Source: Pseudomonadota bacterium
GTDB lineage: Bacteria > Cyanobacteriota > Vampirovibrionia > Obscuribacterales > Obscuribacteraceae
NCBI GenBank assembly: GCA_021324135.1
Contig: JAJPJO010000168.1
Span: forward strand, 1-64,000
DNA length: 64,000 nt
Direction of reading: 5' to 3'
Shown here: piece after piece, positions 20,814-63,743 of the stretch
How the letters are laid out: the number at the start of each line of letters is the position of its first letter
How positions within the stretch are numbered: position 1 is the stretch's first letter
Made by a program: the position numbers and the translations under genes
The notes under the pieces: model-generated
What the model was told of the DNA's origin: nothing
Seen by the model: only the letters and a program-made list of their open reading frames with translations
The model's database searches: none

Positions 20814-21857
20814 TTGAAGGTGGCATTGTTGTACAGAGCATGGCGCCTGGTTCGAGCTCATGAGTGGTGGCACTACAAGTTGCCGCTGGCAATCGCCGTC
20901 GCCTTTGCTTTCTCATCATTCAGCAGAATACCAACCTGCGAGTTATTTTTGCCGTTCATTCTCATTATGGCGGCAGGCATAAGCGCCGCTATATATGCCA
21001 GCGTCTTCAACGATTACATGGATCTCGATCAAGACCGGCGTGCTGGTAAGAAAACGCCGATGATGGACTTATCTCCGGCAAAAAGATCGGCTGTGATTTT
21101 CATCTCTCTTTCACTGATGGCGGCAATTTCATTGCTTCTTCTTCACATGCCGGCTTCATTAACATGTTTTCTTCTCATCTGGGCAGTGTACACAGCTTAC
21201 TCTTTGCCGCCGATCCGCCTGAAAGAGCGTGGCATTCTCGGCGTTCTCTGTATCGGTGTGGGAGAGCACGTCCTCGCCTCTTTCCTGGCCGTTTTTCTGG
21301 TGGCTGAGCTGACCGGGCGATCCGTTCCGTGGTGGTGGTTGCTGCCGGTTTTAGGATGGTCGTTGCCATTCGGTTGCAGGGGCATTGTCTGGCATCAGCT
21401 TGCTGATATTGACAACGATCGCAAGGTCGGTTGCACGACGATGGGGGCGAACCTCGGTGCTGAAGCGCTTCGCCGATTCGGCGAACGCGTGCTCTTTCCA
21501 ATAGAGGTTTTTTCCTTTCTCACGTTTCTAATACTCTGCAATAATCTTGTTGTCTGGCTGCTCCTCGCTCTTCATCTTTTCTTCGAATGGATGAGATACA
21601 GATTTTGGTCCGCCAACATCATTATTGTGGACCCGGTTCCAGGAGGGCGTTTCGCCCTTTTCGAGTACTACCAGCTCTTCTTTCCGCTGGCGATTCTTTT
21701 CTCGGCGCTGCCTCGAGATCCGACAGCAGCAGTGCTGATTGGTATGTTCTGCCTCACATTCGCAGCACCACTGGCGGTGTCGATGCGCGTTCTTCCGGTA
21801 ATCCGCTGGCGCCTGCTCGAGCCCTGGCTTCGCAAGACGAGCAGAGAATCAGGTTAG
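20814..21857 (+). CDS. UbiA-family prenyltransferase
   Basis: The 347-residue polytopic protein has the two aspartate motifs of the UbiA superfamily: NDYMDLDQDRRAGKK (about residues 66-80) and DIDNDRKVGCTT (about 201-212), each placed after a helix as in the intramembrane prenyltransferases. The family joins prenyl diphosphates to aromatic or other acceptors, and a branch transfers phosphoribose to polyprenyl phosphate. The start is probably TTG 20814 (MKVALLYRAWR); GTG 20820 is an alternative. The gene lies in a same-strand run of glycosyltransferases, so either polyprenyl-phosphate-sugar synthesis or prenylation of the nearby polyketide product is possible. No quinone-pathway genes accompany it. 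Confidence 0.87.
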   Translation: MKVALLYRAWRLVRAHEWWHYKLPLAIAVAFAFSSFSRIPTCELFLPFILIMAAGISAAIYASVFNDYMDLDQDRRAGKKTPMMDLSPAKRSAVIFISLSLMAAISLLLLHMPASLTCFLLIWAVYTAYSLPPIRLKERGILGVLCIGVGEHVLASFLAVFLVAELTGRSVPWWWLLPVLGWSLPFGCRGIVWHQLADIDNDRKVGCTTMGANLGAEALRRFGERVLFPIEVFSFLTFLILCNNLVVWLLLALHLFFEWMRYRFWSANIIIVDPVPGGRFALFEYYQLFFPLAILFSALPRDPTAAVLIGMFCLTFAAPLAVSMRVLPVIRWRLLEPWLRKTSRESG

Positions 21858-24586: not shown

Positions 24587-25522
24587 ATGGAGACATGCAT
24601 GAGCACAAAGGAACAGGTGTCCATCTTCAATGATGCCGCTCTGGATGAAGAGTTTCGCACGAAGGGCTATGTTGTTCGCCCTCTGATCAGTCGCGAAGAA
24701 GCAGCCTCCCTGATCGATTTTCATCAGGCCCGGGTGCCTGAGCATGCGCCCAAGGACAGCTTCGGCTGGCAAAGCCCCGATCAATACTTCACTGTGTTCT
24801 GGAAAGAAGATCTGCGTCGAGAATTTCATGATGGAATAAGCGCCGTTCTCAGGCCTCATCTGGAAAAGATTGTGCCCAGCCACAGAGTTTGTCTGAGTTC
24901 CTTTGTCAGTAAGCGGCCCAAAGGCACCCAGGCACGAGTACCCCTGCATCAAGATCTGGCTTTCGTCGATCCAGGCAGGCAGATCGCTGTTCACGCCTGG
25001 GTTCCGATGGTGGACGTCGACGAGAAAAGCGGCTGCCTGAAGATTATTCCTGGCAGCCATAGACTGAAACATATAGGAAGCACTCCAATGAATCCATCGC
25101 CCTGGGATAACCTCAGAGATGTGATGGAATCAGAGTTCATGACGCCCATTCCCATGGCAGCGGGCAGCGTTCTTATCTATGACGGACGCCTTCTGCATGC
25201 CTCGGATCAAAATATGTCCGATGACTGGCGGATCGCGACCAATTCGATCATGATACCGCGGGGAGTGGCGCCACGCATTTACTACTGGTCGCCGCCCACT
25301 ACCTATTCGATTCTCGAGGTGACTGATGAATACTTCATCGGCTTCGACTATTTGACACCGATGCCACAACCATTCCCGAGCGGCGTCAAGAAAGTCGGTT
25401 CGGTCGAATATGAAATCAAACAGTTGAGGCTCGAGGACATAGAGCACCTGCGTCCGCCGCGAGCCAATCGAAGGTCATGGTTCGGAAATCTGCTCGGGCG
25501 ATTGGCCGGCAAATTGGGATAA
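24587..25522 (+). CDS. Phytanoyl-CoA dioxygenase (PhyH) family oxygenase
   Basis: The 311-residue protein is a Fe(II)/2-oxoglutarate oxygenase. The metal triad is visible as H121-x-D123 in VPLHQDLAFVDPG and H204 in GRLLHASDQN; R215 in DDWRIATNS fits the 2-oxoglutarate-binding arginine. KSGCLKIIPGSHRL is the PhyH signature between them. ATG 24599 (MSTKEQV), six bases after GGAG, is an equally good start and would remove four residues. Members hydroxylate acyl-CoA, sugars or natural products. Its place ahead of the exporter ATPase by 32 bases suggests a tailoring role in the locus. Confidence 0.9.
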   Translation: METCMSTKEQVSIFNDAALDEEFRTKGYVVRPLISREEAASLIDFHQARVPEHAPKDSFGWQSPDQYFTVFWKEDLRREFHDGISAVLRPHLEKIVPSHRVCLSSFVSKRPKGTQARVPLHQDLAFVDPGRQIAVHAWVPMVDVDEKSGCLKIIPGSHRLKHIGSTPMNPSPWDNLRDVMESEFMTPIPMAAGSVLIYDGRLLHASDQNMSDDWRIATNSIMIPRGVAPRIYYWSPPTTYSILEVTDEYFIGFDYLTPMPQPFPSGVKKVGSVEYEIKQLRLEDIEHLRPPRANRRSWFGNLLGRLAGKLG

Positions 25523-25554: not shown

Positions 25555-26826
25555 ATGGCACAGCCCCTCCTGGAAGTCAGCAAATTGTCGAAACGCTTTT
25601 GCCGCGATCCGCATCGAGGCGCTGCTTATGCCGTGCGTGATATCGTATCTGATATCACGATGCAAGAGAAGCAAGATAGCCTGCGCAACGGAGAGTTTTG
25701 GGCGCTAAGGGATGTGAGCTTCAACGTCAGCCCCGGGGAAGTGGTCGGAATAATTGGGCACAACGGGGCCGGAAAAACGACACTAATCAATCTCGTATCG
25801 GGCATCTTGCGCCCAAGCGTGGGCAAGGTGCGGCTCAATACTGAAAATATTGTGATGATGAGTCATCAGGGGCAGCTGGACTCGGTCCAGAGCGGCAGAG
25901 AAAATATCGTCAATCAACTGCTGCTGTACGGAAGTCAGCAAAATGATTTGGCAGAAAATGTGGAGAAAGTGATTGAATTCTCGGAGCTCGGCAAGTCAAT
26001 TGACGCGCCGGTAGGCACATACAGCCTCGGAATGAAGCTGAGGCTGTCGTTTGCAATATACACACGTCTTAATCCTGATTTATTTGTCGTGGATGAAGCA
26101 CTGAACGGCGGCGATCTTCAGTTCCAGAGGAAGTTTCAAACTTTCCTGGAAGAATACATCGCCGGTGGTGGCGCCATACTTCTGGCATCCCATGACTTGT
26201 ACACCATTCAACTGCTCTGCAACAGATGCATCCTGATGGAAAAAGGCGAGATCGTCGCCATGGGCGATCCGGTAGATGTAATCAACACTTATCAGCTCCT
26301 GGAGAAAACGAATCGTTCCTGCGAGCCGCTTACAGACAGAGCTTCACTTCTGCAAAGCATTGGCGCCATATCAACAGACAACGGCCAGAAGGAAACAGTC
26401 CGAATCGAAGCCGTTCAAGTCACCGCATTTGGTGGCGGTCCGTTGCTGCCCGGAGCGGCGGCGATGCTCGAAATTGTTTGCTCGTGCGATGAAGATCTGG
26501 AAATGGTGGCGTGCGGCGTTTCCATTGGCAGGCATGACGTTTTTCCAGTGGCCATGCTTGGCAGGGATCAGCTTACTTTGAAAAAAGGAAAGAACAAACT
26601 GCGTTGCAAAATTGTGAGTCTGCCGCTGGTGCCCGGCATCTACAACATGACGGTCGGCTTCATTCGCAGCAATGGATATGTGTTGGGACTCAGAGGTTAT
26701 ATGGACAACTCGCTCAGCTTCGAGATAATAAGCAAGCCGGATGCCCTGGTCAATCAAGAAAGATTCCGAAAGTGCGTTGTGCACTTGTCCGCGGACTGGC
26801 AAGCATTAGAGCACTACCGGCAATGA
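25555..26826 (+). CDS. Wzt-type ABC transporter ATP-binding protein with C-terminal domain
   Basis: The 423-residue protein has an ABC ATPase (about residues 5-245): Walker A GHNGAGKTT (about 68-76), the signature YSLGMKLR, Walker B LFVVDEAL and switch histidine ASHD. The remaining 150 residues (SLVPGIYNMTVGF and similar, beta-rich) resemble the Wzt C-terminal carbohydrate-binding domain. This subtype (polysaccharide/teichoic acid exporters) pumps lipid-linked glycans across the inner membrane. GGAAGGCA precedes ATG 25555. The matching permease gene is 1.5 kb downstream, beyond an opposing P450 gene whose 3' end overlaps this one by 21 bases. Confidence 0.92.
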   Translation: MAQPLLEVSKLSKRFCRDPHRGAAYAVRDIVSDITMQEKQDSLRNGEFWALRDVSFNVSPGEVVGIIGHNGAGKTTLINLVSGILRPSVGKVRLNTENIVMMSHQGQLDSVQSGRENIVNQLLLYGSQQNDLAENVEKVIEFSELGKSIDAPVGTYSLGMKLRLSFAIYTRLNPDLFVVDEALNGGDLQFQRKFQTFLEEYIAGGGAILLASHDLYTIQLLCNRCILMEKGEIVAMGDPVDVINTYQLLEKTNRSCEPLTDRASLLQSIGAISTDNGQKETVRIEAVQVTAFGGGPLLPGAAAMLEIVCSCDEDLEMVACGVSIGRHDVFPVAMLGRDQLTLKKGKNKLRCKIVSLPLVPGIYNMTVGFIRSNGYVLGLRGYMDNSLSFEIISKPDALVNQERFRKCVVHLSADWQALEHYRQ

Positions 26827-28077
26827 CTCCAGGCATCTGATCCGAATCGGCATTCGATAAGAAATTTTGTCGTGCGCCAGTTTTATGCCGGGCGCCCTTT
26901 GCACGAGCGTGCTGATTGCCACCTGAGCCAGCAATCTGGCAAGATGCGAGCCGAGACAGAAGTGCGTTCCTGCACCGAATGCCAGATGCCTGTTACTGTT
27001 CGGCCGCAAAATGTCCAATCGATCGGGCTCGTCGAAAATTGCCGGATCTCTATTGGCTGATCCGATTAGCAGATGAACGGTTTCGCCCTTCTTGAGCAAT
27101 TTTGAGCGCAACTCCACATTCTCCTTGATGAAGTAAGGCACAATCTGGCCCGAAGCTTCAAATCGGGCCAGCTCATCAACGGCACGTTCGATATAGGTTG
27201 GATTCGCCCTGAGCAATTCGAACTGGTCCGGATTTCTGAGCAAGGCAAGTACGCCGTTGCCGATTAGAAATGCCGTGCTTTCGAAGGCCGCCATGACCAG
27301 ATAAAGGGCATTGGCAAGGACCGTATCATGAGAGAGCGACCTGCCCTCAGCCTTGTGCTTGAGAAGATCTGTGATTGAGTCATTGGCCGGCTGTCGTTTG
27401 CGCTCCAATACGATGGGCTTGAGTAATGCCGCCAGTCGAGCGGTCGTCTCCTCCAGCTTGTCCCTTTCGGCCAGGACAGGGTCGAAGCAAAGCATTAGCT
27501 CCCTCAAGAGATCGCAAATTTCTTTTGATTCCTGTGGTATTCCGATTTGTTTGAAGGCAAAGTGCGATGAGAGCGGGAAAGCATAATGCTCAAGCAAATC
27601 AAAGGCACCGGTTTGATTCTCAACATCATCCCATAATTGCCGGGCATATTGCGCAATTTCATCAGTCAACATTTGCACGGATTGTTTTGAAAAGCGCTGA
27701 TTTAGTGGTGTACGAATCTTTGTATGCTGGGGCGGATCGTAGTTTGATATGAAGCCTTTCAAATCGATGGCGGGCTGCTTAACGCCCATGAACATCTCAT
27801 TTGAAAGCGACTTCAGTCTCTGGATGAAGCCTCCAAAAGGACAGCTCTGTTCTGAATTGTTCAGCACTTTTGTAAAATTGCGGTCACGTAAGCAGAAGTG
27901 CACATCCTCGTACTTCGAAATCAGCCACCAGTGTCGATCGGCATTATAAAAAACAGGAGCTTGCTCTCTTAGCACCGCATATAGTGCGTAAGGATTCTGG
28001 ACAAATTCGGGGCGGACGGGATCAAAAGGATCCGCCAGAAAAGATAGAGGAGAATCTAATGCCGTGCCCGTTCTCAT
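26806..28077 (-). CDS. Cytochrome P450
   Basis: ATG 28077 (MRTGTALDSPLSFL) has GAAAGG just upstream and is preferred over the ORF limit at 28116, giving 423 residues, the usual size for a soluble bacterial P450. The haem loop is FGAGTHFCLGSHLARL with the thiolate Cys374; the K-helix ExxR is DELARFE; HLAFG and the HTKIRTPLNQRFS (C-helix arginine) segment also fit. The I-helix reads MAAFESTAFL, so the usual AG-x-x-T is AF-E-S-T. It requires ferredoxin partners that are not in the window. It sits on the opposite strand between the two exporter genes and is probably a tailoring enzyme of the locus. Confidence 0.95.
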   Translation of the reverse strand: MRTGTALDSPLSFLADPFDPVRPEFVQNPYALYAVLREQAPVFYNADRHWWLISKYEDVHFCLRDRNFTKVLNNSEQSCPFGGFIQRLKSLSNEMFMGVKQPAIDLKGFISNYDPPQHTKIRTPLNQRFSKQSVQMLTDEIAQYARQLWDDVENQTGAFDLLEHYAFPLSSHFAFKQIGIPQESKEICDLLRELMLCFDPVLAERDKLEETTARLAALLKPIVLERKRQPANDSITDLLKHKAEGRSLSHDTVLANALYLVMAAFESTAFLIGNGVLALLRNPDQFELLRANPTYIERAVDELARFEASGQIVPYFIKENVELRSKLLKKGETVHLLIGSANRDPAIFDEPDRLDILRPNSNRHLAFGAGTHFCLGSHLARLLAQVAISTLVQRAPGIKLAHDKISYRMPIRIRCLESLPVVL

Positions 28078-28336
28078 AGACCTTTCGTTTCTGCAGACGG
28101 CTTGCAAACCGCGCAAAGCCGCTTAGATCTAGCTCAAGACTATACCCCACTCCTGGTTCAACGTTATGAGCATTGCCTTATGGGCAGTCAGCACCTGGAT
28201 TTCCGAGCCAAAATTAGGTGCGGCTAAGATTTCCCTGAGGTTGTCATCTATATAATTGACCAGTCTAGCTGTGTGGCTGTGCGTGCAATCAAACAACCAG
28301 AAATATGATTTGCTGGATCGGGCTCCGTTGTCGACT
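28078..28336. other. 259-bp divergent region between P450 and ABC permease genes
   Basis: Should hold promoters for both flanking genes. No strong box or operator was found. A minus-strand frame (28129-28350) is open here but lacks a ribosome site. Confidence 0.35.
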
Positions 28337-29224
28337 ATGGAGCCGTCCATCGAGCATGCGCAAAATGCGAACAGCGGCTCGGATGCCATCCTGGAATTCG
28401 CCGCTGAAAGCCCTCTTCGCCAGTTCAAAGGCTTTATCAGGCAGGTATGTGACGATTTATTATCCGCCCGGGCTCCCGCCTATCGCTTGTTTAAGAGCGC
28501 CATAGCGCAAAGGTATCGCCATTCTTCTCTGGGACTGCTCTGGGCGTTTTTGCCATCGGCGATAGTGGCGGCCATTGTCTCACTGGGACAGAAGCATGTT
28601 CCTGCGCTTGCTCCAATAGACATTTCCGGTCAGTTTTATGCAATTTTCGGTCTCATTCTTTTCCAAACACTTCTTGAAACCTTCAATACACAGCGATGCC
28701 TGTTCACGGCAAATCGACACCAGCTCAATCGTCACCGGCGCATATTAGAGGCATCTTTTCTGGCTGGACTTCTAGACAATCTGTTCAGCCTGGCTGTGAA
28801 GCTACCCATACTGATTGGCGCCCTTATCTTATGCGGCGTGCATCCTGCCTCGACCGTCATTCTGGGACTGTTTGGTATCCTGCTTGTACTGGCATTCGGC
28901 ACCACGCTGGGAATTCTGGCAGCACCATGGAACGCGCTCAGAGGAGACCTGAATCACGTCATGGGATTTTTTCCCTGGATTCTGGCAGCGACGACGCCTG
29001 TGTTCGTTAAACCCACCGTCGACTCCCTTTGCTGGAAGTACTATCTCCTCAATCCGCTTACCTGGGTCTTTGAAGCAGTGCGAAATTTCTTTTATGGAAA
29101 CGCCACCATGGGTGATGGCATTGTCATGCTTCTCGTTTGCTCCATAACCTTCATCCTACTTCCCGTGAGCTGGCTCATTTGCCGCATTGCCCGTCCCTAT
29201 GTCATTGAGCGAACGATGGTCTGA
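28337..29224 (+). CDS. Wzm-type ABC-2 transporter permease
   Basis: The frame is open from 28256 (TTG), but the sequence up to ATG 28337 (MEPSIEHAQNA) looks non-coding; neither has a strong ribosome site, so the start is uncertain. The product has a cytosolic amphipathic start, the diagnostic AIAQRYRHSSLGLLWAFLPS, and six hydrophobic segments, ending in a short basic tail. This is the membrane half of polysaccharide/lipid exporters and pairs with the Wzt-type ATPase upstream. The stop is three bases before the ATG of the AT-P450 fusion gene, so both are probably cotranscribed. Confidence 0.9.
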   Translation: MEPSIEHAQNANSGSDAILEFAAESPLRQFKGFIRQVCDDLLSARAPAYRLFKSAIAQRYRHSSLGLLWAFLPSAIVAAIVSLGQKHVPALAPIDISGQFYAIFGLILFQTLLETFNTQRCLFTANRHQLNRHRRILEASFLAGLLDNLFSLAVKLPILIGALILCGVHPASTVILGLFGILLVLAFGTTLGILAAPWNALRGDLNHVMGFFPWILAATTPVFVKPTVDSLCWKYYLLNPLTWVFEAVRNFFYGNATMGDGIVMLLVCSITFILLPVSWLICRIARPYVIERTMV

Positions 29225-29227
29225 GCC

Positions 29228-31447
29228 ATGGCCGTGCGAGACTTATACAACAAAATTCAAAACTTGTTCGCCTCAAAGGAGTCGCAGACATTTGCAGGCG
29301 GCCGCCAGCCTCAAGGTCGTCTGCTATTCCTGTTCCCCGGCGCACACGGCTTTTGGCCCGGAATAGGACAGGGACTCTATCGCACTGAGCGCATCTTCCG
29401 GGACACAGTTTGGCAATGCAATAAAGTAGTCGCGGACAGATTCAAGCTAATCGATTATTTTGAAAACAACTTGAGCGAAGAGCTCATCAACAGCGGTCTT
29501 CTGCACTCACCTATTCTTCATGCCGTTATCCATATAGCGCTTTCGGAGCTCTGGCTAGCAAAGGGCGTAGAGCCTCATGGAACTATCGGCTGCAGCATTG
29601 GGGAAGTGACCTCGTGTTATGTCAACCGATCGCTCGGACTGGAAGACATTCTGCGCTGCGCTTCCTTTCCCAGATGTGACCCTGGTCGAATATTCAGTAA
29701 GGCAAAACTGTTCGCCGTTCAGCACAATGCGCAAGTCTTGGACAGGCTCTATAAAGAGTGTCCCGTGCAGGTCTTCACCTGTGCAGAGTTTGGCCCGACC
29801 TTCAATGTTTACGGCTGCTTTCCAGAAGATCTGGGTACAGTCCTGTCTGTTTTGGAAGAGAACAACATTGCTTACTACAGCTTCAGCGGCGATTACGGAC
29901 TTCATATGCCGCTCCAGGAAGGTGGCATGGAGATATTTTTCCAGGAGCTGGGTGAACTGGCACCCGAAAAAGCACGCTACGACTTCTACTCCAATCTGTC
30001 CGGCGCCCAAAACCCGGAAGGAGTCTCACTAGACACCACCTACATGTATTGGCTATCGGTAAAGCCGGCACGTTTTACAGCAGCAATTCGGCAGGCGATC
30101 ATGGATGGCTATGACACCATATTAAGTATCGGCGCCAGCTCGATAATTCTTCCCCAGATTCAGCAGCTTTCTGCTGAAATGGAAACAGAGCTTACGATAC
30201 TCGATTCTATGCGCAGTGACGAGCCTGAGGAGGACACCTTTGAGAAGACATTTTATACTCTTGCCGATCTTGGCTTAGTGAAATCGCGGCGGCATCGGCA
30301 AGCAAGTAACCTCGAATTTAAAGACCAAAAGCACATAACGCCGCAAACTGCGGATCTGCAATCAAGCGAATTTATACAAAATCCATACCTGTACTATGAA
30401 TCTTTGAGGCAAAATGGATCCGTCCATTTCCTCAGCAAGCACGGCTGCTGGATTGTGCTTGATTACGATGATGTTCAATCCGCATTGCGACAACCTCAGT
30501 TGTTTTCCAGTCGCGACCAATCAGTGATTCCCATTTTGGTGGGCTCAGATCCTCCTGCGCACACAGACATTCGGCAAAACATACAGTCGTTTTTTTCCGG
30601 GCGCGAACTATTGCACGTGCAAGGCTACATTGAGGAATGCGCGCGTCGATTATTGCAAGCCTCTACATCTGGGAAAAACGAGTTCGACCTGGTCAACGAT
30701 TATGCCGTACCACTGGCCGATTTAGTGATGGGTCGCTGCCTGGATCTAAAGGAAGCGGATGTGGCAGCTCTTAAACAATGCATTGGCAAAAGCGGAAGCG
30801 ATCACACAGAAGCGATCGAAAACTTTTTTGTGTCCTATCTGAATAACGGCGAAGCGTGCTCGAGAAATCGAATTGCGGACGCCCTCATAACCGGGGCGGG
30901 CGGCAAGAAGTTCACACCAGATGAGATCGCTTCATTGCTTAAGCTGTTCTGGCTTGCAGGAACGACTACGGTCAGCACGCTGATCAGCAGTGCCGCATTT
31001 GTTCTGTTGCATCATCATGTCGTCGCTTATGAGGTTCGAAGCAAGACCGATTTGTTGCCGCAATTCATCGAGGAAGTGCTGCGCTTCGAAACACCTGAGC
31101 AAACAGCAAGACGCATTACCCTGGAGGAAACTGTCGTGTCGGGAGTTACTATCCCCCGAGGCGCACAGGTCAGGCTTTGCGTGGGCGCCGCCAATAGAGA
31201 TCCGAAGAAATTTGCCCGGCCTGATTTGTTCATCCTGGGCCGAAACCCTAAAGAGCATATCGCCTTCGGTGCCGGACCTCACTATTGTCTCGGCGCTGCT
31301 CTTGCCCGCATGGAAGCGCTCGCTGCCATAGAGGCATTGTTAACAGCCTTTCCAAACATGTGCCCCGTCGAATCTCATCGAGCCGCTAGATACGTGCGAC
31401 TCTCAGACCACAGCCGCTCGCTCGAGAAATTGCTCGTGCGGGTCTAG
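29228..31447 (+). CDS. Acyltransferase-cytochrome P450 fusion protein
   Basis: The 739-residue chain joins two enzymes. Residues about 30-335 resemble a polyketide-synthase/FabD acyltransferase: FLFPGAHGFWPGIGQGLY, nucleophile S123 in GCSIGEV (usual GHSLGE) and H226 in GLHMPLQ as the partner histidine. The arginine that binds the malonyl carboxylate (25 residues after the serine) is Pro here, with Arg one place later, so a malonyl substrate is doubtful. Residues about 378-739 are a P450: I-helix LAGTTTVST, ExxR EEVLRFE, haem loop FGAGPHYCLGAALARME with Cys687. Both halves look intact. It is coupled to the exporter permease and converges on the PPTase gene, overlapping its 3' end by 45 bases. 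Confidence 0.88.
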   Translation: MAVRDLYNKIQNLFASKESQTFAGGRQPQGRLLFLFPGAHGFWPGIGQGLYRTERIFRDTVWQCNKVVADRFKLIDYFENNLSEELINSGLLHSPILHAVIHIALSELWLAKGVEPHGTIGCSIGEVTSCYVNRSLGLEDILRCASFPRCDPGRIFSKAKLFAVQHNAQVLDRLYKECPVQVFTCAEFGPTFNVYGCFPEDLGTVLSVLEENNIAYYSFSGDYGLHMPLQEGGMEIFFQELGELAPEKARYDFYSNLSGAQNPEGVSLDTTYMYWLSVKPARFTAAIRQAIMDGYDTILSIGASSIILPQIQQLSAEMETELTILDSMRSDEPEEDTFEKTFYTLADLGLVKSRRHRQASNLEFKDQKHITPQTADLQSSEFIQNPYLYYESLRQNGSVHFLSKHGCWIVLDYDDVQSALRQPQLFSSRDQSVIPILVGSDPPAHTDIRQNIQSFFSGRELLHVQGYIEECARRLLQASTSGKNEFDLVNDYAVPLADLVMGRCLDLKEADVAALKQCIGKSGSDHTEAIENFFVSYLNNGEACSRNRIADALITGAGGKKFTPDEIASLLKLFWLAGTTTVSTLISSAAFVLLHHHVVAYEVRSKTDLLPQFIEEVLRFETPEQTARRITLEETVVSGVTIPRGAQVRLCVGAANRDPKKFARPDLFILGRNPKEHIAFGAGPHYCLGAALARMEALAAIEALLTAFPNMCPVESHRAARYVRLSDHSRSLEKLLVRV

Positions 31448-32179
31448 ATCAGCATATTGGAAATCGTCGATGTGCCAATCGAACGCGCTGATCGTGGGGC
31501 GATCGGATAGGTTCTCGGCCAATGCCGCGGCATAGCAACCAGACGTATTCAACCAGTGCACACGCCAGCCAGAGCTCGATTCGCCTGCTTCATCTATGAT
31601 CGCCGTGCAGCCATTTTGAAAGTGAAAGCTGGGGACTGAGAAGGATTGAAACGACCGAGACAATCCCTGTCCGGTGGCTTTGACAAACGCCTCCTTTGCC
31701 GTCCAGAGGCGAAAAAATGCCTCCTGCTTTTGATCATCGGCAAGTGAATTTAATGCCATCGCCTCGTCTGTCTGGCAGACTCGCAAAGCAATCTCATTGA
31801 TATTTGGTACAGTGCGTATCTTCTCCACATCCACGCCGAGATCCGCATGCGCAGAGACGGCCAAGAGATTCATCCCCCCGGAATGAGAAAAACTAAAACG
31901 CAGTCTCTCTTCATTGGCAATAGACGGTTTACCATAGAGTCCCAATTTAAAAACCACATCTGCCGGATGCACAAACAGGTACTTTGAAAGAACGGCTCGC
32001 AGATATGCTCTGGAGCACATAAAACCTTCTTGCAATTCTTGAGTGACAAAACGATTCGCTCGCTCGAGTTCATCAGAAGATAACCATGTCTTCAATTGCC
32101 GGGAAGCGATGGCGCCTGGTTGGCGACGAAAGGACCAGATGTGGATGTCGCCTTTGCTCAAATGCCAGTTTCTAAGCAT
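31403..32179 (-). CDS. Sfp-type 4'-phosphopantetheinyl transferase
   Basis: The 258-residue pseudo-dimeric enzyme carries GVDVEKI (D117, E119 bind Mg2+) and FRLWTAKEAFVKATG (E163, K167), the two motifs of Sfp-type transferases; GKPSIANEERLRFSFSHSGG precedes them as expected. It attaches phosphopantetheine from CoA to the serine of carrier proteins, here presumably S1367 of the PKS. It lies 19 bases after the type II thioesterase gene in the PKS operon. Its 3' end overlaps the AT-P450 gene on the other strand. Confidence 0.95.
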   Translation of the reverse strand: MLRNWHLSKGDIHIWSFRRQPGAIASRQLKTWLSSDELERANRFVTQELQEGFMCSRAYLRAVLSKYLFVHPADVVFKLGLYGKPSIANEERLRFSFSHSGGMNLLAVSAHADLGVDVEKIRTVPNINEIALRVCQTDEAMALNSLADDQKQEAFFRLWTAKEAFVKATGQGLSRSFQSFSVPSFHFQNGCTAIIDEAGESSSGWRVHWLNTSGCYAAALAENLSDRPTISAFDWHIDDFQYADLDPHEQFLERAAVV

Positions 32180-32198: not shown

Positions 32199-32972
32199 TC
32201 AGTCCAGGCGCTTCAGAACTTCACTCAAGAGTTGTCCTCTCACATCTTGCTCCTTCAAAGAGAAATGTCCACCCGGCAGGATATGCATGTCAAAATTCTT
32301 GCTCGTCTGATCGCGCCAGCCCGAAACGTCCTTGGCGCCGGCGCGATGATCATCGCCAAAGGCGAAGGCGGTAATCCCGATATCGAGCGGCTTTTCCTGG
32401 CAGTAGTTGCGCTTCTCCAAGATCGTAAAATCGGCTCTCATAAGTTTAAGAATCAGGGCGCGCATTTCCGCATCGTTAGTGATCGCCTTAGGAGTGCCAC
32501 CAAATGAAGTGACCTCAGATAAGAGATCTGAATCGCACATGGTATGCAAAAGAGGTTGGTGCATAGGCGCTTGCGGTGCCGAAATTGCAGAGACGAAAAG
32601 ATGATTCGGTTGAGCCTTTCCCGATCGGCGAAGAGCGCGGCAAAGCTCAAAGGCAATAATGCTGCCCAGGCTGTGTCCGAAAAAGTAAAATGGCAGATCA
32701 AAGAGCGGGTCCATTTCCTCGACAAGAATAGTTACCAGCTCGCTCAGATCAGTAATTGGCTCCTCGCGCAAACGATGCTCTCTGCCCGGCAGCTGGATCG
32801 CGCAGGTTTCGACATCATTGCCCAAAATGTCCGCCCAGGGCCGGTAACCGAGCGCACCACCGCCTGCCCATGGGAAGCAAAAAATTCGCTTTTTTGCATG
32901 GGGACCATGGTTCCAGCGAAAGATCCACTTACTTGAGGCAAGCGATTCAACATTGGGAAGTGCCGTGCTCAT
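32199..32972 (-). CDS. Type II thioesterase
   Basis: The 257-residue alpha/beta hydrolase has the GrsT/RifR pattern: CFPWAGGGALGYRPWAD at the oxyanion side, IQLPGREHRL, nucleophile S101 in FFGHSLGS and the catalytic H236 in LPGGHFSLKEQ. Such stand-alone enzymes release wrong or stalled acyl groups from carrier proteins; as the PKS has no thioesterase domain of its own, this protein could also release the product. The gene begins five bases after the PKS stop and precedes the PPTase gene by 19 bases, so the three form an operon. Confidence 0.95.
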   Translation of the reverse strand: MSTALPNVESLASSKWIFRWNHGPHAKKRIFCFPWAGGGALGYRPWADILGNDVETCAIQLPGREHRLREEPITDLSELVTILVEEMDPLFDLPFYFFGHSLGSIIAFELCRALRRSGKAQPNHLFVSAISAPQAPMHQPLLHTMCDSDLLSEVTSFGGTPKAITNDAEMRALILKLMRADFTILEKRNYCQEKPLDIGITAFAFGDDHRAGAKDVSGWRDQTSKNFDMHILPGGHFSLKEQDVRGQLLSEVLKRLD

Positions 32973-32977
32973 TCGAA

Positions 32978-35900
32978 TTACCTGTTCGATTGACGAGCTA
33001 GCTCGTTTTGCCGGACCATTTGTTGGGCATCGGGATCGTTCACAACCTTCGCTGCGTCGCCTCGCAACTGCGTCTCAACATACTCGCTCAAGCAGTCTAC
33101 GCTGGGATACTCGTATAACTTTATGGCAGAAATAGCAGGTCCGCCCAGATCAGACTGGATGCGATTTGACAGCTCCACGGCCATCAGTGAATCGATGCCT
33201 AAGTCGAAAAGACTCTGGTTCGAATGGAGGTTTTTATTTGCCGGCCATTTAAGAATCTTGCGCACCTGATGCTCCAGGTATTCCTTCAAGACCTGTATGC
33301 GCTCTGCTGATGCTCCGTGTCTCTCGAGCTCTGCAATGCGGGCTCTCAATACAGCGGTCTGCTCTTGAGCCTCCGCTCTTTCCAATTCCGGCTCGATTTT
33401 TTCGGATGGTCCCGGCTTTCTATTGCGCGAGTTCGAGTTCTGCAATGTCGAGTACTGCAGGACAACCGATTGACTATCGGCTTGTCCGACGATCACTGCT
33501 TGTTGAGTGCCGCTGCCCAGCGTGATCACCTCGACGGATTCAAAACCTTCATCCTTCATTAGTTTCGTCCATTTAGATGAGGCGAGGAAAAGATGGTCGG
33601 GACGCAAATCAAAATCGTTGAAATGCCACCAACCCTCCAAACTGCCAAAGGCAACATCCAACCATACAGCGCTGGCGACCGGCTCGAGCGCGAGAATAAA
33701 TCCGCCCGGGGAGAGAAGCTGTTGAAGACTCCTGATCGATTCTCTGACCGAGCGTGTGGCATGAATGACATTGGCTGCAATTACAACATCAAATTGGTTT
33801 GCCGAAAAGCCTTGTGATTTTGGATTGCACTCCAGGTCGAAGCGCTCAAATTGCATGAATGGGTATTGGGAAAAACGCTGCCGTGCACGCTCCAAGAACA
33901 ATGGCGACACATCGGTAAATACATATTCACATCGCTCGGCAGATAATTCCGGCAAAACAAGATTGGTAGTGCCGCCCGTGCCGGCACCTACCTCCAGTAT
34001 TCTCAATTTCCCTTGGCCCGAAAACTTAGGGATTATCGACCTGAGAATTTCCCTCAATAACTTATTGGCGAGTTTGAAATAGGGTGCGCGGTAATAAACG
34101 TCTTCAAGCGAGACCTCCGGTGGAGCTGGAAACAGCAGCGACAGCGGATCCTGTCCGCCGGACCATAGCAAATGCAGATGGTCGGCGCTACGCTTGAGCA
34201 GAGTAAGCTCTATTGAAAAATCCGGATACCGATCAAGAATATCTTTATGATGCTGCTCGAGATCATCCAGTGACGGCCAACAAACGACGGACCAGAGCTG
34301 GCCCGTCTTCTTCAGAATCCCTGCCTCGATCAGCCGGGTGAGGCAATACTCCACATAACGTCTATGCCGGTCAATGATCCTTAAGTCCTTGCACAACGCA
34401 TCGACTTCAAAAGTATCACCGATTCGAGGCTTCCAACCCAACCTTTCCAGAGCCCTGCATATGTAATCATGGCAGAGTGGCACAAGTTCATTTTGCATGC
34501 CTTGCTCATCTGATAACAGCTCAGCGACATGCCGGTGAGCGAGAATGCCCTCCACTTCCTTAACAACGGCGGCACTATCCAGCTTTGGAAACTTGGCCAC
34601 CAGTTGGCATACCTGCTCCTCCGCCTTCTCCAAAATTTCCAGCCAATAGCGCTCTCGCTGCCAGGGGTAAGTAGGCAATGAAACCTTTCGTCGCTCATAG
34701 AAGCTTTCAAAACCAAGCCAGTCGATCGCCGCTCCGCTCACGTACAGCCGAGCAATACTTTCGAGCAGCACCACCCATGGTGCCTCTCCCCGGCGCATTG
34801 ACGGCAACCATTGCACTTTGCGATCGCCCTGGCAATCCATGCCGAATGTTATAAGCTGAGGTTGCGGACCAAGCTCGACAAATGTATTGCAGCCCTCGTC
34901 CATAGCCTTTTCGATCGCCTGCTGGAATTTGACCACCGCGCGCGTGTTGTTCGCCCAGTATTCCGCATTGATCCCCTCAGGAGCGACCAGGTCCGCAGTT
35001 ATGCTCGAAATCAACGGCAGTCGCAAGTCTTCGTATTCGGCTCTGTTCGCCGCCGCTAACAATTCCCTTTTCACAGGCTCGATATTGCCTGAGTGGAAGG
35101 CATGATATATGGGCAAACGTGTCGCCTGTATAGCTTGCTTCTGGCAAAGCGAAATCAGATCGTCGCATCGATCGAGGCTGCCGGCAACAACCGTCTGGGT
35201 GGGTGAATTGATACAGGCTATCTCAAAATCAGGAATCGCTTTTAGAAGCTCCTCGACTCTTTGCCACGGTGCCTGTACAGCTAACATGGTCCCATTGGGG
35301 TGTTGCCTCGTCAGCCGACCGCGCGCAACAATAAGATCGAGGGCAGTTTCAACCTTCATTGCACCGGCAATGACCGCAGCCGCATATTCTCCCAGGCTAT
35401 GGCCGAGCACCAGATGCGGTACCACACCGAAACTTTGCCATAGTTGCCCGAGAGCGTACTGAAGAGCAAATAAGCAGGAATGGGAGTAGACCACGTCCGA
35501 GAGCATTGGGTTGGTGCCATAAAGTGAATCGAGCAGACTAAATTCTTCATCGTATTGGGAGAAACGGACGGCACATTCATCGATCGCTTCCCGGAAAACC
35601 GGACTTGTACGATACAACTCACGTCCCATCTCCGCATCAAGTGAAAATCCCTGGCCCGAAAACAAGAATGCAATCTTTGGCTTTTCGGTGCCGGTTGCGA
35701 CCGTACCGCTCCGGTAATCGCGAGCGGTAAGCTTAGATCTGAAATCATCGAGATCGCGCGCTACGACAGACAGGCGATGCTCATGTCGAGCTCTACCAGT
35801 ATTGGCTGAGTAGGCTAGATCAGCAAGTTTTTGTCCCGGATGTGCCTGAGCGTGGGAAAGAAAACGCTCTTGAAGTTGCTCCAGCGCCTCAGGAGTTCTA

Positions 35901-37288
35901 GCTGACATTGTAACGACGTGTGCGGTTCTGTCGTCTTGCGGTTCCGTCTCGCCCGACTGCACCGGATATGGTGCCTCCTCCAGGATCAAGTGAGCAATCG
36001 TTCCGCTGGCGCCAAAGGAGCTGACTCCGGCTCTTCGGACGCGGCCTTCCATCTTAGGCCAGCTTGTCATTGATGTTGGCACAGCGGCAGGTATTGCTTG
36101 CCAATTGATCGCCGGATTTGGCTTTTGCAAATGCAGATGAGGTGGAATCGCTTCTTTCTGCAGGCAAAGCACGGTCTTAATCAAGCCGGCCATCCCGGAG
36201 GCTGCCTCAAGGTGACCGAGGTTTGTCTTGCAAGAACCAATGTAGAGCGGTTGCAGGCTTGCCGGCCGGTTCTGAAAGACACGAACCAGTGCTTCTGCCT
36301 CCGTCGGATCGCCTATACTGGTTCCCGTTCCATGAGCCTCGACATAGTCGATGCTGGACGGCGACAATTTTGCCAGTTCGAGTGCTCTTCGAATCAAAGT
36401 CTCTTGCCCGACTGCATTCGGTACCGTCAAGCCGTTTCGTACACCATCCTGAAGAACGGCACTGCTTCGAATTACGGACAGAATCCGATCGCCGTCACGC
36501 TGCGCATCTGCAAGGCGCTTCAGAACAACAACACCACAGCCTTCACCGCGAGAGAAGCCATCAGCGCTGGCATCAAAAGTCTTGCATCGTCCATCCGGGG
36601 AAAGCACGCTTGCTTTGCAGTAATTTATAGTGTGCTCAGGGGTAATCATCAGGTGCACGCCGGCAGCAATGGCACAGTCCGCTTCCCCGTTTAGCAAGCT
36701 GGAGCATGCATTGTGTACCGCCACCAGGGATGATGCACAAGCGGCATCAACCGCCCAACACGGACCCATGAGACCGAGCAAGTATGCCAAGCGTCCGGCA
36801 ATAACATGTGGAACGCTGCTGGTTATGCGAAAGATCGATTGGTCTTCAGACCGATCGTATTTGCTGAGCAGAAAACCATAGTCGTTAGATGAAACGCCGA
36901 CGAAAACGCCGGTGAAGCTACCGTTCAGTTTGTCCGGGTTTATGCCTGCATCTTCCAGCGCTTCCCAGGCGACCTCGAGAAAGAGCCTCTGTTGTGGATC
37001 CATCCACTCGGCTTCGCGCGGACTGATGCCGAAGAACTGTGCGTCGAACTCATCGATTGGACATTCAAGGAAACCGCCCTCACGAACGAACATTTTGCCG
37101 GGCGCTTCCGGATCAGGGTCATAGTGATCCGCAGCCCGCCAACGCTCTTCCGGAATTGGTCTAATGGCATCGACGCTTCTTTCTAAAATCTGCCAGTAAG
37201 AATCGATATCGTGTGCGCCGCCGGGAAAGCGACACCCCATGCCGATAATGGCAATTGCTTCCGGTTGCCTGCTAGAGTCTAGAACCAT
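32978..37288 (-). CDS. Type I polyketide synthase, one module: KS-AT-cMT-ACP
   Basis: The 1436-residue protein has a ketosynthase (about 8-435; C184 in DAACASS, H319 in VEAHGTGT, H359 in NLGHLEAASG), an acyltransferase (about 535-860; S631 in GHSLGEY, R656, H732), a SAM methyltransferase (about 940-1270; LEVGAGTGGTT), a charged coiled coil (about 1297-1345) and an acyl carrier domain (S1367 in LGIDSLMAVEL). HAFH at the AT active site points to malonyl-CoA. The MT type is that of C-methylating PKSs. No ketoreductase, dehydratase, enoylreductase or thioesterase domain is present, so one round would leave an alpha-methyl-beta-keto thioester. It leads an operon with the thioesterase and PPTase. 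Confidence 0.96.
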   Translation of the reverse strand: MVLDSSRQPEAIAIIGMGCRFPGGAHDIDSYWQILERSVDAIRPIPEERWRAADHYDPDPEAPGKMFVREGGFLECPIDEFDAQFFGISPREAEWMDPQQRLFLEVAWEALEDAGINPDKLNGSFTGVFVGVSSNDYGFLLSKYDRSEDQSIFRITSSVPHVIAGRLAYLLGLMGPCWAVDAACASSLVAVHNACSSLLNGEADCAIAAGVHLMITPEHTINYCKASVLSPDGRCKTFDASADGFSRGEGCGVVVLKRLADAQRDGDRILSVIRSSAVLQDGVRNGLTVPNAVGQETLIRRALELAKLSPSSIDYVEAHGTGTSIGDPTEAEALVRVFQNRPASLQPLYIGSCKTNLGHLEAASGMAGLIKTVLCLQKEAIPPHLHLQKPNPAINWQAIPAAVPTSMTSWPKMEGRVRRAGVSSFGASGTIAHLILEEAPYPVQSGETEPQDDRTAHVVTMSARTPEALEQLQERFLSHAQAHPGQKLADLAYSANTGRARHEHRLSVVARDLDDFRSKLTARDYRSGTVATGTEKPKIAFLFSGQGFSLDAEMGRELYRTSPVFREAIDECAVRFSQYDEEFSLLDSLYGTNPMLSDVVYSHSCLFALQYALGQLWQSFGVVPHLVLGHSLGEYAAAVIAGAMKVETALDLIVARGRLTRQHPNGTMLAVQAPWQRVEELLKAIPDFEIACINSPTQTVVAGSLDRCDDLISLCQKQAIQATRLPIYHAFHSGNIEPVKRELLAAANRAEYEDLRLPLISSITADLVAPEGINAEYWANNTRAVVKFQQAIEKAMDEGCNTFVELGPQPQLITFGMDCQGDRKVQWLPSMRRGEAPWVVLLESIARLYVSGAAIDWLGFESFYERRKVSLPTYPWQRERYWLEILEKAEEQVCQLVAKFPKLDSAAVVKEVEGILAHRHVAELLSDEQGMQNELVPLCHDYICRALERLGWKPRIGDTFEVDALCKDLRIIDRHRRYVEYCLTRLIEAGILKKTGQLWSVVCWPSLDDLEQHHKDILDRYPDFSIELTLLKRSADHLHLLWSGGQDPLSLLFPAPPEVSLEDVYYRAPYFKLANKLLREILRSIIPKFSGQGKLRILEVGAGTGGTTNLVLPELSAERCEYVFTDVSPLFLERARQRFSQYPFMQFERFDLECNPKSQGFSANQFDVVIAANVIHATRSVRESIRSLQQLLSPGGFILALEPVASAVWLDVAFGSLEGWWHFNDFDLRPDHLFLASSKWTKLMKDEGFESVEVITLGSGTQQAVIVGQADSQSVVLQYSTLQNSNSRNRKPGPSEKIEPELERAEAQEQTAVLRARIAELERHGASAERIQVLKEYLEHQVRKILKWPANKNLHSNQSLFDLGIDSLMAVELSNRIQSDLGGPAISAIKLYEYPSVDCLSEYVETQLRGDAAKVVNDPDAQQMVRQNELARQSNR

Positions 37289-37607: not shown

Positions 37608-38753
37608 ATGCCTCCAATGACGCGCCTAGACTCGCATTTGTCGATCGATCAAAGGAACCTGGGCCGGGCGATTGATAGCGGCATGAGTTTCCTATGGCAA
37701 AATCAGCTGCCCTCGGGCGAATTCATTTCTTATCGCTCCACCGATCCGACGATGGGCACGGCTTGTGAATTTGACAGTTCGCCCTTCCCGACAGCATTAA
37801 TCGCATTTTGTCTCAGCTTTTCGAACTCAGATAAAGCGCATCAAATGATCGCCAGGGCGAGCCAATTTTTCCTTCGCGAGATGGAAGCACCGGGCGTCTG
37901 GAGATATTGGACGTCCCAGCATCCATTCCACAAGAACATACCGCCCGATACCGACGATCTCGCCTGCGTATCAAGCATCCTCATGAGCCAGGGTTTAACT
38001 TATCGCAACAATATCGACTTGATGTTGGCTAACAGAAATGACGAGGGGCTCTTCTATACCTGGTTTGCGCCCCGCTTCCGTGCAGCCAATCGATTTGCCC
38101 GGCGATGTTTTTCATTCTGGCAAACTGTTGGGCGAGAAGCGATGCAACCTGCCAGCCTCTACTATTTTTGGAAACTCAATGAAGCAAAGCCAAATGATAT
38201 TGACGCCGTTGTAAATGCAAATGCCCTGTATTACCTGTGGCTTGCCAAACAATCCGGAGCAATTTCCGATTCGATTTATGAAGCTGCTGTTGTGCCGGTC
38301 GCGAACTATCTCATGGACATCATTAGAGAAGATCGCGAAGAGCTTTGCGACAAGTGGCATCTCAGTCCATTCAATCTCTATTACGCCGTCTCTCGAAATC
38401 TATTTGCCGGTGTCGAGCCGTTTCGATCGATTGAAGATCTCCTCGTCAGGAAGGTTCTCCGGCATGCCCGCCTTGATGGGATGATCGGGAGCAACGTTCT
38501 TGAGACTGCACTGGCGGTGTGCATCTTGCTCAACTGCTCCAGTCGTCCTGAGGAAATGTTCCGGGCCATCGACAAACTTTTAGCGAGCCAGGAAGAAACT
38601 GGCTGCTGGACCAGGTTGCCGCTCTATTATGGTGGACCAAAGAAATATTTCGGCTGGGGCTCCGAGGAGTTGACCACCGGTTTTTGCCTCGAGGCCTTGA
38701 TTCGCTGCCATCATCCTTCAATGCAGAGCGGAGCAGGTCCTTATGCTCTTTAA
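37608..38753 (+). CDS. Single-domain class II terpene-cyclase-like protein (squalene-cyclase repeats)
   Basis: The 381-residue protein is an all-helical toroid of the squalene/hopene cyclase type. It has D114-T-D116-D117 in PPDTDDLACVSS, which matches the DxDD acid motif of class II terpene cyclases, and QW-type repeats Q33-x3-G-x-F and Q328-x3-G-x-W334; DAVVNANALYYLWLA is also typical of this fold. It is about half the size of squalene-hopene cyclases, but monodomain class II cyclases are known (for example MstE of cyanobacterial meroterpenoids). Proteins of this fold can be non-enzymatic, so cyclisation is a hypothesis. Its end overlaps the MBOAT gene start by 11 bases. GGGAAAG precedes the ATG. 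Confidence 0.68.
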   Translation: MPPMTRLDSHLSIDQRNLGRAIDSGMSFLWQNQLPSGEFISYRSTDPTMGTACEFDSSPFPTALIAFCLSFSNSDKAHQMIARASQFFLREMEAPGVWRYWTSQHPFHKNIPPDTDDLACVSSILMSQGLTYRNNIDLMLANRNDEGLFYTWFAPRFRAANRFARRCFSFWQTVGREAMQPASLYYFWKLNEAKPNDIDAVVNANALYYLWLAKQSGAISDSIYEAAVVPVANYLMDIIREDREELCDKWHLSPFNLYYAVSRNLFAGVEPFRSIEDLLVRKVLRHARLDGMIGSNVLETALAVCILLNCSSRPEEMFRAIDKLLASQEETGCWTRLPLYYGGPKKYFGWGSEELTTGFCLEALIRCHHPSMQSGAGPYAL

Positions 38754-43348: not shown

Positions 43349-44881
43349 TTACCCTTTTCTTCGTTTTTTCCTCAACCTGCGTCCTCTGCCGAAGCCGCTG
43401 GCGCTTGCCGCACCTGAGCTTCCGGGCGGTTTGGGCGGGAAGCCGAACGGCGACCTTCCCGCCTGAGCCATGCCGCCACCGGGCTTAGGAGCGCCGGGCA
43501 TACCGCCCAGCCCAGGCAAGCCGGGCAGTCCAGGCATACCGGGCAATCCGGGCAGACCGCCAGGACCGCCGCGCAGCATGGGTTTCATGTACTCCATCAT
43601 CTGCCGCATTTGTTGAAACTCATTTAACATTTGACCGATTTGCGCATCTTTGAGACCGCAGCCTCGCGCGATTCGGCGCCGGCGCGAGAAATCGATCATG
43701 TCAGGATGACGGCGCTCCTCCTTGGTCATCGAGTTTATCGCCGTCTCATAAAGCGAGAGCATCTGCTCGCCATGATCGGCCACCAACTTTTGTTGCGAGC
43801 TGTTCAAACCGAGCATGCCGCCCAGTCCCATCATCTTCATGATGTCGCCGATCGAACCCATGCGCTTCATCATTTTCTGCATCTCGACGAACATCTCAAG
43901 CGTGAAGTCGCCCTTGAGCATGTCGGCGGCCACCCGCTCCATCTCCCGCTCATCGATTGTCTGCTGCGCTTTTTCAACCAGGGAGAGAACATCGCCCATG
44001 TCGAGAATGCGACTGGCCATGCGGTCTGGATAAAACGTCTCCAGATTGTCGAGCTTCTCTCCGGTGGATATATATTTGACCGGCTTACCAACCGTTTCCC
44101 GCACGGACAGCGCCGCACCGCCCCGGGCATCACCGTCCACTTTGGAGAGAATCAAGCCGGTGACATCGAGTTGCGTGTTGAATGTATCGGCTACATTGAC
44201 CGCTTCCTGTCCGGTCATCGAGTCGACGACGAGCAGCTTCTCGGCCGGCTCGAGAGCGCGATCGAGAATCATGAGCTCAGCCATCAGCGGCGTGTCGATT
44301 TGCAAGCGACCGGCCGTGTCGATTATCACCGGGCTATAACCATTTTTCTCCGCTTCCTCGATGGCGCCTTCGGCGATCTCTTGAACGTCCTTCTCGTCAG
44401 GCAGGGCGAAAACCGGAATCTCGATTTGCTCACCAAGGGTTTGCAGTTGCTTGATGGCAGCAGGTCGTTGCACGTCGCATGCCACCATCAGTGGTTTATG
44501 CCCCTCTGCCCGCAACTTAAAGGCGAGCTTCGCGCAGGCTGTTGTTTTGCCGGATCCCTGCAAACCAAGGAGCATGATTACAGGCGGCGTGCCTTCCAAC
44601 TTAATCGGCTCGTTCTCGCCACCAAGGATGGTGACAAGCTCGTCATAAACTATTTTGACGAATTGCTGCGCCGGCGTGACCGATTCGAGAACCTCGGCAC
44701 CAAGAGCCTTTTGCCTGACGCGGCTTATGAAGATTTTAACCACCTTCAAGCTTACATCAGCCTCAATTAGAGACTTGCGCACATCACCGATGGCTTCTTC
44801 GATATTCTCAGCCGTCAACTTGCCGTCGCCGGTCAAGTTGCGGAATGCGTTATGCAGCCTGTCGGTCAGAGTGTCGAACAT
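43349..44881 (-). CDS. ffh: Signal recognition particle GTPase Ffh (SRP54)
   Basis: The 510-residue protein has the N domain (1-90), the G domain (about 95-300) with GLQGSGKTTACAKLA, CDVQRPAAIKQL, IIDTAGRLQ, LSKVDGDARGGAAL, and the Met-rich M domain (about 325-430) with RRRRIARGCG for 4.5S RNA binding. It delivers nascent membrane proteins to FtsY. The tail after 440 is unusual: Gly/Pro/Leu repeats (PGLPGMPGLPGLPGL) and then a basic GFGRGRRLRKKRRKG end. AAGGAGCG precedes ATG 44881, 11 bases after the HD gene stop. Confidence 0.98.
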   Translation of the reverse strand: MFDTLTDRLHNAFRNLTGDGKLTAENIEEAIGDVRKSLIEADVSLKVVKIFISRVRQKALGAEVLESVTPAQQFVKIVYDELVTILGGENEPIKLEGTPPVIMLLGLQGSGKTTACAKLAFKLRAEGHKPLMVACDVQRPAAIKQLQTLGEQIEIPVFALPDEKDVQEIAEGAIEEAEKNGYSPVIIDTAGRLQIDTPLMAELMILDRALEPAEKLLVVDSMTGQEAVNVADTFNTQLDVTGLILSKVDGDARGGAALSVRETVGKPVKYISTGEKLDNLETFYPDRMASRILDMGDVLSLVEKAQQTIDEREMERVAADMLKGDFTLEMFVEMQKMMKRMGSIGDIMKMMGLGGMLGLNSSQQKLVADHGEQMLSLYETAINSMTKEERRHPDMIDFSRRRRIARGCGLKDAQIGQMLNEFQQMRQMMEYMKPMLRGGPGGLPGLPGMPGLPGLPGLGGMPGAPKPGGGMAQAGRSPFGFPPKPPGSSGAASASGFGRGRRLRKKRRKG

Positions 44882-63589: not shown

Positions 63590-63650
63590 GCAGAAAAACA
63601 TTACACTGCCATTCGCGGCAGATGGTGATGCGTGCTAAACTTCTCGTTTA

Positions 63651-63695
63651 GGCGATGGGGTTCGCCATAACCGCCGTCAGGCTGATGACTCCTAC
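63651..63695 (+). ncRNA. Fluoride riboswitch (crcB motif)
   Basis: The element GGCGATGGGGTTCGCC-ATAACC-GCC-GTCA-GGC-TGATGACTCCTAC matches the crcB-motif aptamer: hairpin GGCG/CGCC, conserved ATAA-CGCC, second hairpin GCC/GGC, and TGAtGACxCCTAC. The pseudoknot pairs loop GGGGT (63656-63662 region) with ACTCC (63688-63692), including one G.U pair. It lies 57 bases before a cation:proton antiporter gene, a gene type known to be controlled by fluoride riboswitches. Confidence 0.93.
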
Positions 63696-63743
63696 TGAGA
63701 ACTGCAAGCGAGGCGTTCCGCCGCGCAGTGAATTTGGTAGGAG
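63689..63743 (+). promoter_or_regulatory. Anti-Shine-Dalgarno/Shine-Dalgarno switch downstream of the fluoride aptamer
   Basis: CTCCTAC (63689-63695) at the 3' edge of the aptamer is an exact complement of GTAGGAG (63737-63743), the ribosome site of the antiporter gene, and the helix can be extended to 11 pairs with G.U wobbles. It shares ACTCC with the ligand-stabilised pseudoknot, so the two pairings exclude each other. Between them, a GGCG-TTC-CGCC hairpin (about 63711-63721) is closed by ACTGC/GCAGT. Confidence 0.75.

Follow-up and report, generated by a model that had tools for sequence, protein, structure and literature searches.

An acyltransferase-like domain and a cytochrome P450 in a single open reading frame beside a small polyketide synthase

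A non-photosynthetic relative of cyanobacteria carries an open reading frame (ORF) of 739 aa in which an acyltransferase (AT)-like domain is followed by a cytochrome P450, and the gene adjoins a small polyketide synthase (PKS). The window analysed here is a stretch of 64,000 nucleotides (contig JAJPJO010000168.1, positions 1 to 64,000). The features of the locus are listed below, with the basis of each assignment in brackets.

25555–26826, + strand: ABC transporter ATPase, Wzt/TagH-like (sequence matches)
26806–28116, − strand: second, stand-alone cytochrome P450, overlapping the 3′ end of the ABC ATPase gene by 21 nt (PF00067)
28256–29224, + strand: probable permease of the ABC-2 type, its gene immediately preceding the AT-P450 ORF (inferred: hydrophobic, near the ATPase, no Pfam match)
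29228–31447, + strand: AT-like/P450 ORF, 739 aa (single frame, no inner stop; ATG 3 nt past the permease stop codon)
29327–30244, + strand: Acyl_transf_1 domain, residues 34–339, with a post-AT helix after it that extends to about residue 349 (Pfam; Foldseek)
29594–29596, + strand: Ser123, predicted nucleophile in GCSIGE, with Cys122 in place of the usual His (alignments)
29669–29671, + strand: Pro148, at the malonyl-binding Arg column (alignments)
29903–29905, + strand: His226 (YGLHMP), predicted catalytic base (column invariant in the alignment)
30275–30361, + strand: linker, residues 350–378, with GTG351 at 30278–30280 and a +1-frame TAG at 30276–30278 (sequence inspection)
30362–31447, + strand: cytochrome P450 domain, residues 379–739 (Pfam, PDB search, model and Foldseek)
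31286–31288, + strand: Cys687, haem ligand in FGAGPHYC (column invariant in alignments)
31403–32179, − strand: 4′-phosphopantetheinyl transferase (PPTase), its 3′ end overlapping the AT-P450 ORF by 45 nt (PF01648)
32199–32972, − strand: type II thioesterase (PF00975, E 1.8e-47)
32978–37288, − strand: KS-AT-cMT-ACP polyketide synthase, 1436 aa, with an ordinary AT; proposed acyl-ACP source (Pfam; cMT closest to CurJ)

At the composition of the sequence, an open frame of 739 aa would arise by chance with a probability of about 2e-15. Pfam recognizes both parts of the protein, Acyl_transf_1 at residues 34–339 (E 3.1e-22; 79.9 bits against a cut-off of 32.7) and p450 at residues 545–708 (E 2.1e-24; 86.6 bits, cut-off 22.8). 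The first-pass annotation, made from the sequence alone, had claimed an AT-like domain and a complete P450 in one polypeptide, and this holds, as do the positions it had given for Ser123, His226, Cys687, the GCSIGE motif and the Arg-to-Pro change at residue 148. The 40-residue linker that it described is present, but comprises residues 350–378. GC and GC3 are 0.505 and 0.561 in the AT half and 0.516 and 0.545 in the P450 half, and the neighbouring genes agree; hence there is no sign that unlike DNA has been joined. A contaminant contig was considered and rejected, given that ffh (43349–44881) shares 72% identity with a relative from the same family, which makes the contig flank native to the lineage.

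The KS-AT-cMT-ACP domain set ascribed earlier to the neighbouring PKS is borne out by Pfam, with no loading domain seen. Across the order, 52 other genomes yielded no comparable synthase; the best other PKS match there covers residues 7–885 at 39%, and most remaining matches are frames of 1,500–3,000 aa, taken as PUFA-synthase-like by size. On the other side of the ORF, the second P450 (26806–28116, − strand) sits on the opposite strand between the genes for the ABC ATPase and the probable permease. The product of the gene at 37608–38753 (+ strand) is toroid-like, 381 aa long, and contains a DxDD-type motif (PPDTDDL). It matches drimenol synthase weakly (E 0.007) and may be a small terpene cyclase-like protein of class II. 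Another genome of the cyanobacterial phylum has a 1510-aa ORF (L098:7585-12117; G168:C310) made up of PhyH, UbiA, SQHC-like, second PhyH and TPR parts. It unites relatives of the window genes 20814–21857, 24587–25522 and 37608–38753 in one protein, which suggests that these three share one pathway. Near the end of the window, a fluoride riboswitch (63642–63701, + strand; 60.6 bits) lies a short distance upstream of an ORF that starts at about contig position 63728 and, by eye, resembles a cation/H+ antiporter. On the contig past the window, a kynureninase-like and a kynurenine monooxygenase-like gene lie side by side (L067:11479-14409) with a cupin dioxygenase-like gene upstream (all by eye), a possible tryptophan-to-quinolinate operon.

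We compared the AT half with cis-acting ATs of modular PKSs (DEBS AT3, 2qo3; tylosin; spinosad; avermectin loading AT, 4rl1). Among its best sequence matches are DEBS AT3 (81 bits) and the avermectin loading AT (73 bits, E 2.9e-19). An AlphaFold2 model of residues 31–350, made for this half separately (pLDDT mostly 80–97), has the cis-PKS AT fold (Foldseek E 2e-23 to PKS ATs), the avermectin loading AT giving the highest target coverage (TMt 0.85). The domain match above cut-off, the fold and the Ser and His place the half among PKS/FAS acyltransferases, and it shares with cis-PKS ATs the GxSxGE nucleophile, the catalytic His and the post-AT helix. Unlike them, it has neither KS nor KS-AT linker and is fused to a P450. 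Of the earlier label ‘FabD/PKS-type’, the PKS part stands, as cis-PKS descent, but a FabD-type origin was rejected because cis-PKS ATs match far better. An origin as a tandem copy of the AT in the neighbouring PKS was also rejected, at just 26% identity and 42 bits.

The active site differs from that of cis-PKS ATs at several positions: the Gln of GQG is Ala39, the His of GHS is Cys122, the malonyl-binding Arg is Pro148, the Asn of NGP is Phe188 and the Ser of HS is Met227. Only 25 of 56 near-invariant AT columns, defined from 20 other ATs, are kept and 31 are changed, whereas the comparison ATs, each left out in turn, retain 70–100% of such columns. With the malonyl Arg, the His of GHS (GCSIGE instead of GHSxGE), the Gln of GQG and other core residues lost, the half is not an ordinary malonyl or methylmalonyl extender AT, in agreement with the earlier view that it is non-standard for malonyl. 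Against this background of change the Ser123-His226 pair stands out as retained; at the same time, the pocket lacks several further residues in addition to the Arg, which may leave Ser123 inactive.

In trans-AT systems, acyl hydrolases can be diagnosed by a missing Arg and often have a residue other than His before the Ser; an Arg-to-Gln change in an AT permitted acetylation from ACP, and in the hydrolase PksD the Gln that replaces Arg is required, Q124A being inactive (PMC11775670). The AT half shares this signature with PksD (8avz) and PedC, which suggests that, if it works at all, it would act on an uncharged acyl group. However, it scores just 28 bits against PksD compared with 81 against DEBS AT3, has Pro148 where Gln (less often another residue) is expected, and lies next to a cis-AT PKS; judged from its sequence, it falls outside the known trans-AT acyl hydrolase clade. 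The first-pass annotation had proposed an altered acyl group or a docking role only: the malonyl role is indeed lost, but the acyl-hydrolase signature had not been considered.

The P450 half is of the compact type, and PDB sequence matches to it span about residues 376–739. Its completeness, claimed earlier from the Cys687 loop, is confirmed by that loop together with E616xxR619 and the I-helix AGTTT (577–581) with Thr581. An acidic residue before the I-helix Thr is common in P450s, not universal; here it is replaced by Thr580, and the 11 nearest cyanobacterial P450s carry GNET where the fusion has AGTTT. The best Foldseek match of the AlphaFold2 model of this half (modelled separately, pTM 0.82) is P450BioI bound to acyl-ACP, followed by CYP109 enzymes, and by sequence the P450BioI:acyl-ACP structure (3ejb) ranks third of 503. 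From this fold similarity the P450 half may be ACP-dependent in the manner of P450BioI, although the similarity is shared with CYP109 enzymes, which act on free lipids. P450BioI and CYP109 enzymes are stand-alone, whereas the present P450 follows an AT fold and has Thr in place of the I-helix acid. A short F-G lid was dropped as a special trait: it measures 43 aa against 55–60 in relatives from the order, but 47 in the nearest cyanobacterial P450s.

The AT-P450 fusion is known from one genome. It is absent from 52 other genomes of the order, and no such protein was found in about 1,100 cyanobacterial genomes searched. AT queries were run against 386 genomes of the phylum; the matches listed include no AT-P450 frame, the short frames opened from them being PKS pieces, and full-length queries of 390 and 391 cyanobacterial genomes (samples that overlap in part) returned P450s only. 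None of 72,556 plasmids covers 80% of the query. Across 84,980 species no relative was found with exact 8-mers of the AT or with relaxed active-site motifs (query alignment of P0001 plus artificial rows serving to set the allowed residues), both narrow searches that miss relatives lacking those 8-mers or motifs. A phrase search of the open literature, which is weak evidence, did not find the fusion either, and the earlier statement that no described AT-P450 family is known agrees with these results. The nearest genomic P450 relatives found are stand-alone compact cyanobacterial P450s, 30–34% identical, with no AT in the 13–19 kb fetched around the closest of them. The idea that the two halves might always co-occur is not supported, with no co-occurrence found elsewhere in these searches. 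Being private to one genome, the fusion has no conservation in its support; occurrence in two or more lineages, which would mark an established family, was not seen in the genomes, plasmids and species searched.

Fusion candidates picked by ORF size proved to be a P450-reductase (L028), a P450 with an extra N-terminus (L029), PKS pieces (L061-L063) and a terpene synthase-P450 from Pantoea (L058). The first of these, in a related genome (L028:1665-3968), is a 767-aa ORF with a P450 and a ferredoxin reductase/ferredoxin-like part, assigned by eye. The last, a plasmid protein of Pantoea sp. At-9b (L058:2206-4419; WP_013511682, 737 aa), is annotated as a P450 only and is actually a terpene synthase-P450 fusion. 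It provides a precedent for the layout, a biosynthetic enzyme N-terminal to a bacterial P450 in a single protein, although a terpene synthase, rather than an AT, makes up its N-terminal half. Hence, a P450 joined to a biosynthetic enzyme is already known in kind, and the AT-P450 is a new combination of known domains, from one genome and with a caveat at its junction.

With a single frame, both folds, the Ser, His and Cys kept, the malonyl Arg lost and a PKS, PPTase and type II thioesterase as neighbours, the ORF can be read as encoding a tailoring enzyme of two domains that belongs to the adjacent KS-AT-cMT-ACP pathway; we hold this reading tentatively and rate it somewhat below an even chance. 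A cis-PKS AT domain that lost its malonyl site would now handle an uncharged acyl chain on an ACP: the AT-like domain would dock the ACP, Ser123-His226 would transfer or hydrolyse the acyl thioester, and the attached P450 would oxidize the acyl chain. That Ser123 is active, that the partner is the ACP of the neighbouring PKS, that the chain is oxidized while ACP-bound and in which order the steps run are points we infer. Most likely, the protein, or an AT/P450 pair, serves the neighbouring PKS with its type II thioesterase and PPTase.

The linker invites another reading, which we think possible but rather unlikely: two translationally coupled genes, one AT-like (29228 to about 30278) and one for a P450 that begins at GTG 30278. 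A one-base change near 30262–30276 would have joined them, be it a genuine recent mutation or a fault of the assembly, and the two proteins would work separately. GTG351 is the only in-frame start (ATG, GTG or TTG) inside the linker, and it lies in TTAGTGA (30275–30281), where the +1-frame TAG shares one base with it and the following A gives an overlapping TGA. This layout, a start overlapping the previous stop by one base, is shared by three other gene pairs in the window. GTG351 has no Shine-Dalgarno sequence, as is true of the one-base-overlap starts of GT2 (18342) and AlgJ (40149), while that of TPR (19109) has just 3 matching nt. Removing one base at about 30262–30275 would split the frame into an AT-like part of about 350 aa and, from residue 351, a P450 of ordinary length (389 aa) with an ordinary N-terminus, which may still be made from GTG351. 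The two-gene reading also fits the lack of the fusion in every relative and the nearest P450s being separate genes. A frameshift at residues 340–378 had been named in the first-pass annotation as the event that would undo the fusion; a footprint of one is found at residues 350–351, but the assembled frame has no stop. Also against two genes, AT homology in the present frame reaches about residue 349, which confines a separating indel to about 10 bases; no other gene is broken in the window or among the genes matched in this genome; and TA precedes a lone start codon by chance about 1 in 16 times, so that coincidence is possible. Because one indel would split the genes, the fusion could have arisen recently or, with lower probability, reflect a faulty assembly, and the tightly constrained indel position and lack of other broken genes make a recent real indel likelier than an assembly error. 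An old fusion is possible.

Two further accounts keep the protein whole and give the AT-like domain another role. It could act in trans to load starter units onto the neighbouring PKS, like the avermectin loading AT or a fungal SAT domain, with the P450 oxidizing the starter or the released product. A non-carboxylated acyl group would be in keeping with the missing malonyl Arg, the avermectin loading AT ranks with the best matches by sequence and fold, and the PKS has no loading domain of its own; however, extender ATs match equally or better, no acyl-CoA ligase gene lies alongside and iterative PKSs often start from malonyl, and we regard this role as improbable. Little credence is likewise due to a catalytically dead domain that only docks the ACP or supports folding while the P450 does the chemistry, a role for which the first-pass annotation had drawn the analogy to X-domain recruitment. 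The loss of more than half of the core positions, among them the GQG Gln, the NGP Asn and the HS Ser, would suit such a domain, but a domain with a purely structural role would have no need to retain Ser123, His226 and the GxSxGE frame, as this one does.

Returning to the two-domain tailoring enzyme, its proposed logic, a P450 brought to a carrier-bound chain, resembles that of glycopeptide synthesis, in which the X-domain, a condensation-type domain on the NRPS, recruits Oxy P450s. Here, the domain has an AT fold and not the condensation-domain fold of an X-domain, and it sits on the P450, not on an NRPS. That an AT fold could act as a carrier-handling module in a P450, with one enzyme both capturing or releasing the acyl group and oxidizing a polyketide bound to the ACP, is a doubtful proposition for now, and so is its standing as an AT-based counterpart of X-domain recruitment.

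Few systems are known for how stand-alone P450s find carrier-tethered chains. A natural AT-P450 fusion, if true, would be a compact and directly testable example of a P450 reaching a tethered chain, a part that might serve to engineer oxidation steps into polyketide assembly, and a clean case for asking if acylation or hydrolysis persists in an AT that lost its malonyl site. If the ORF is instead a freshly joined gene pair, it would show one step by which tailoring enzymes fuse.
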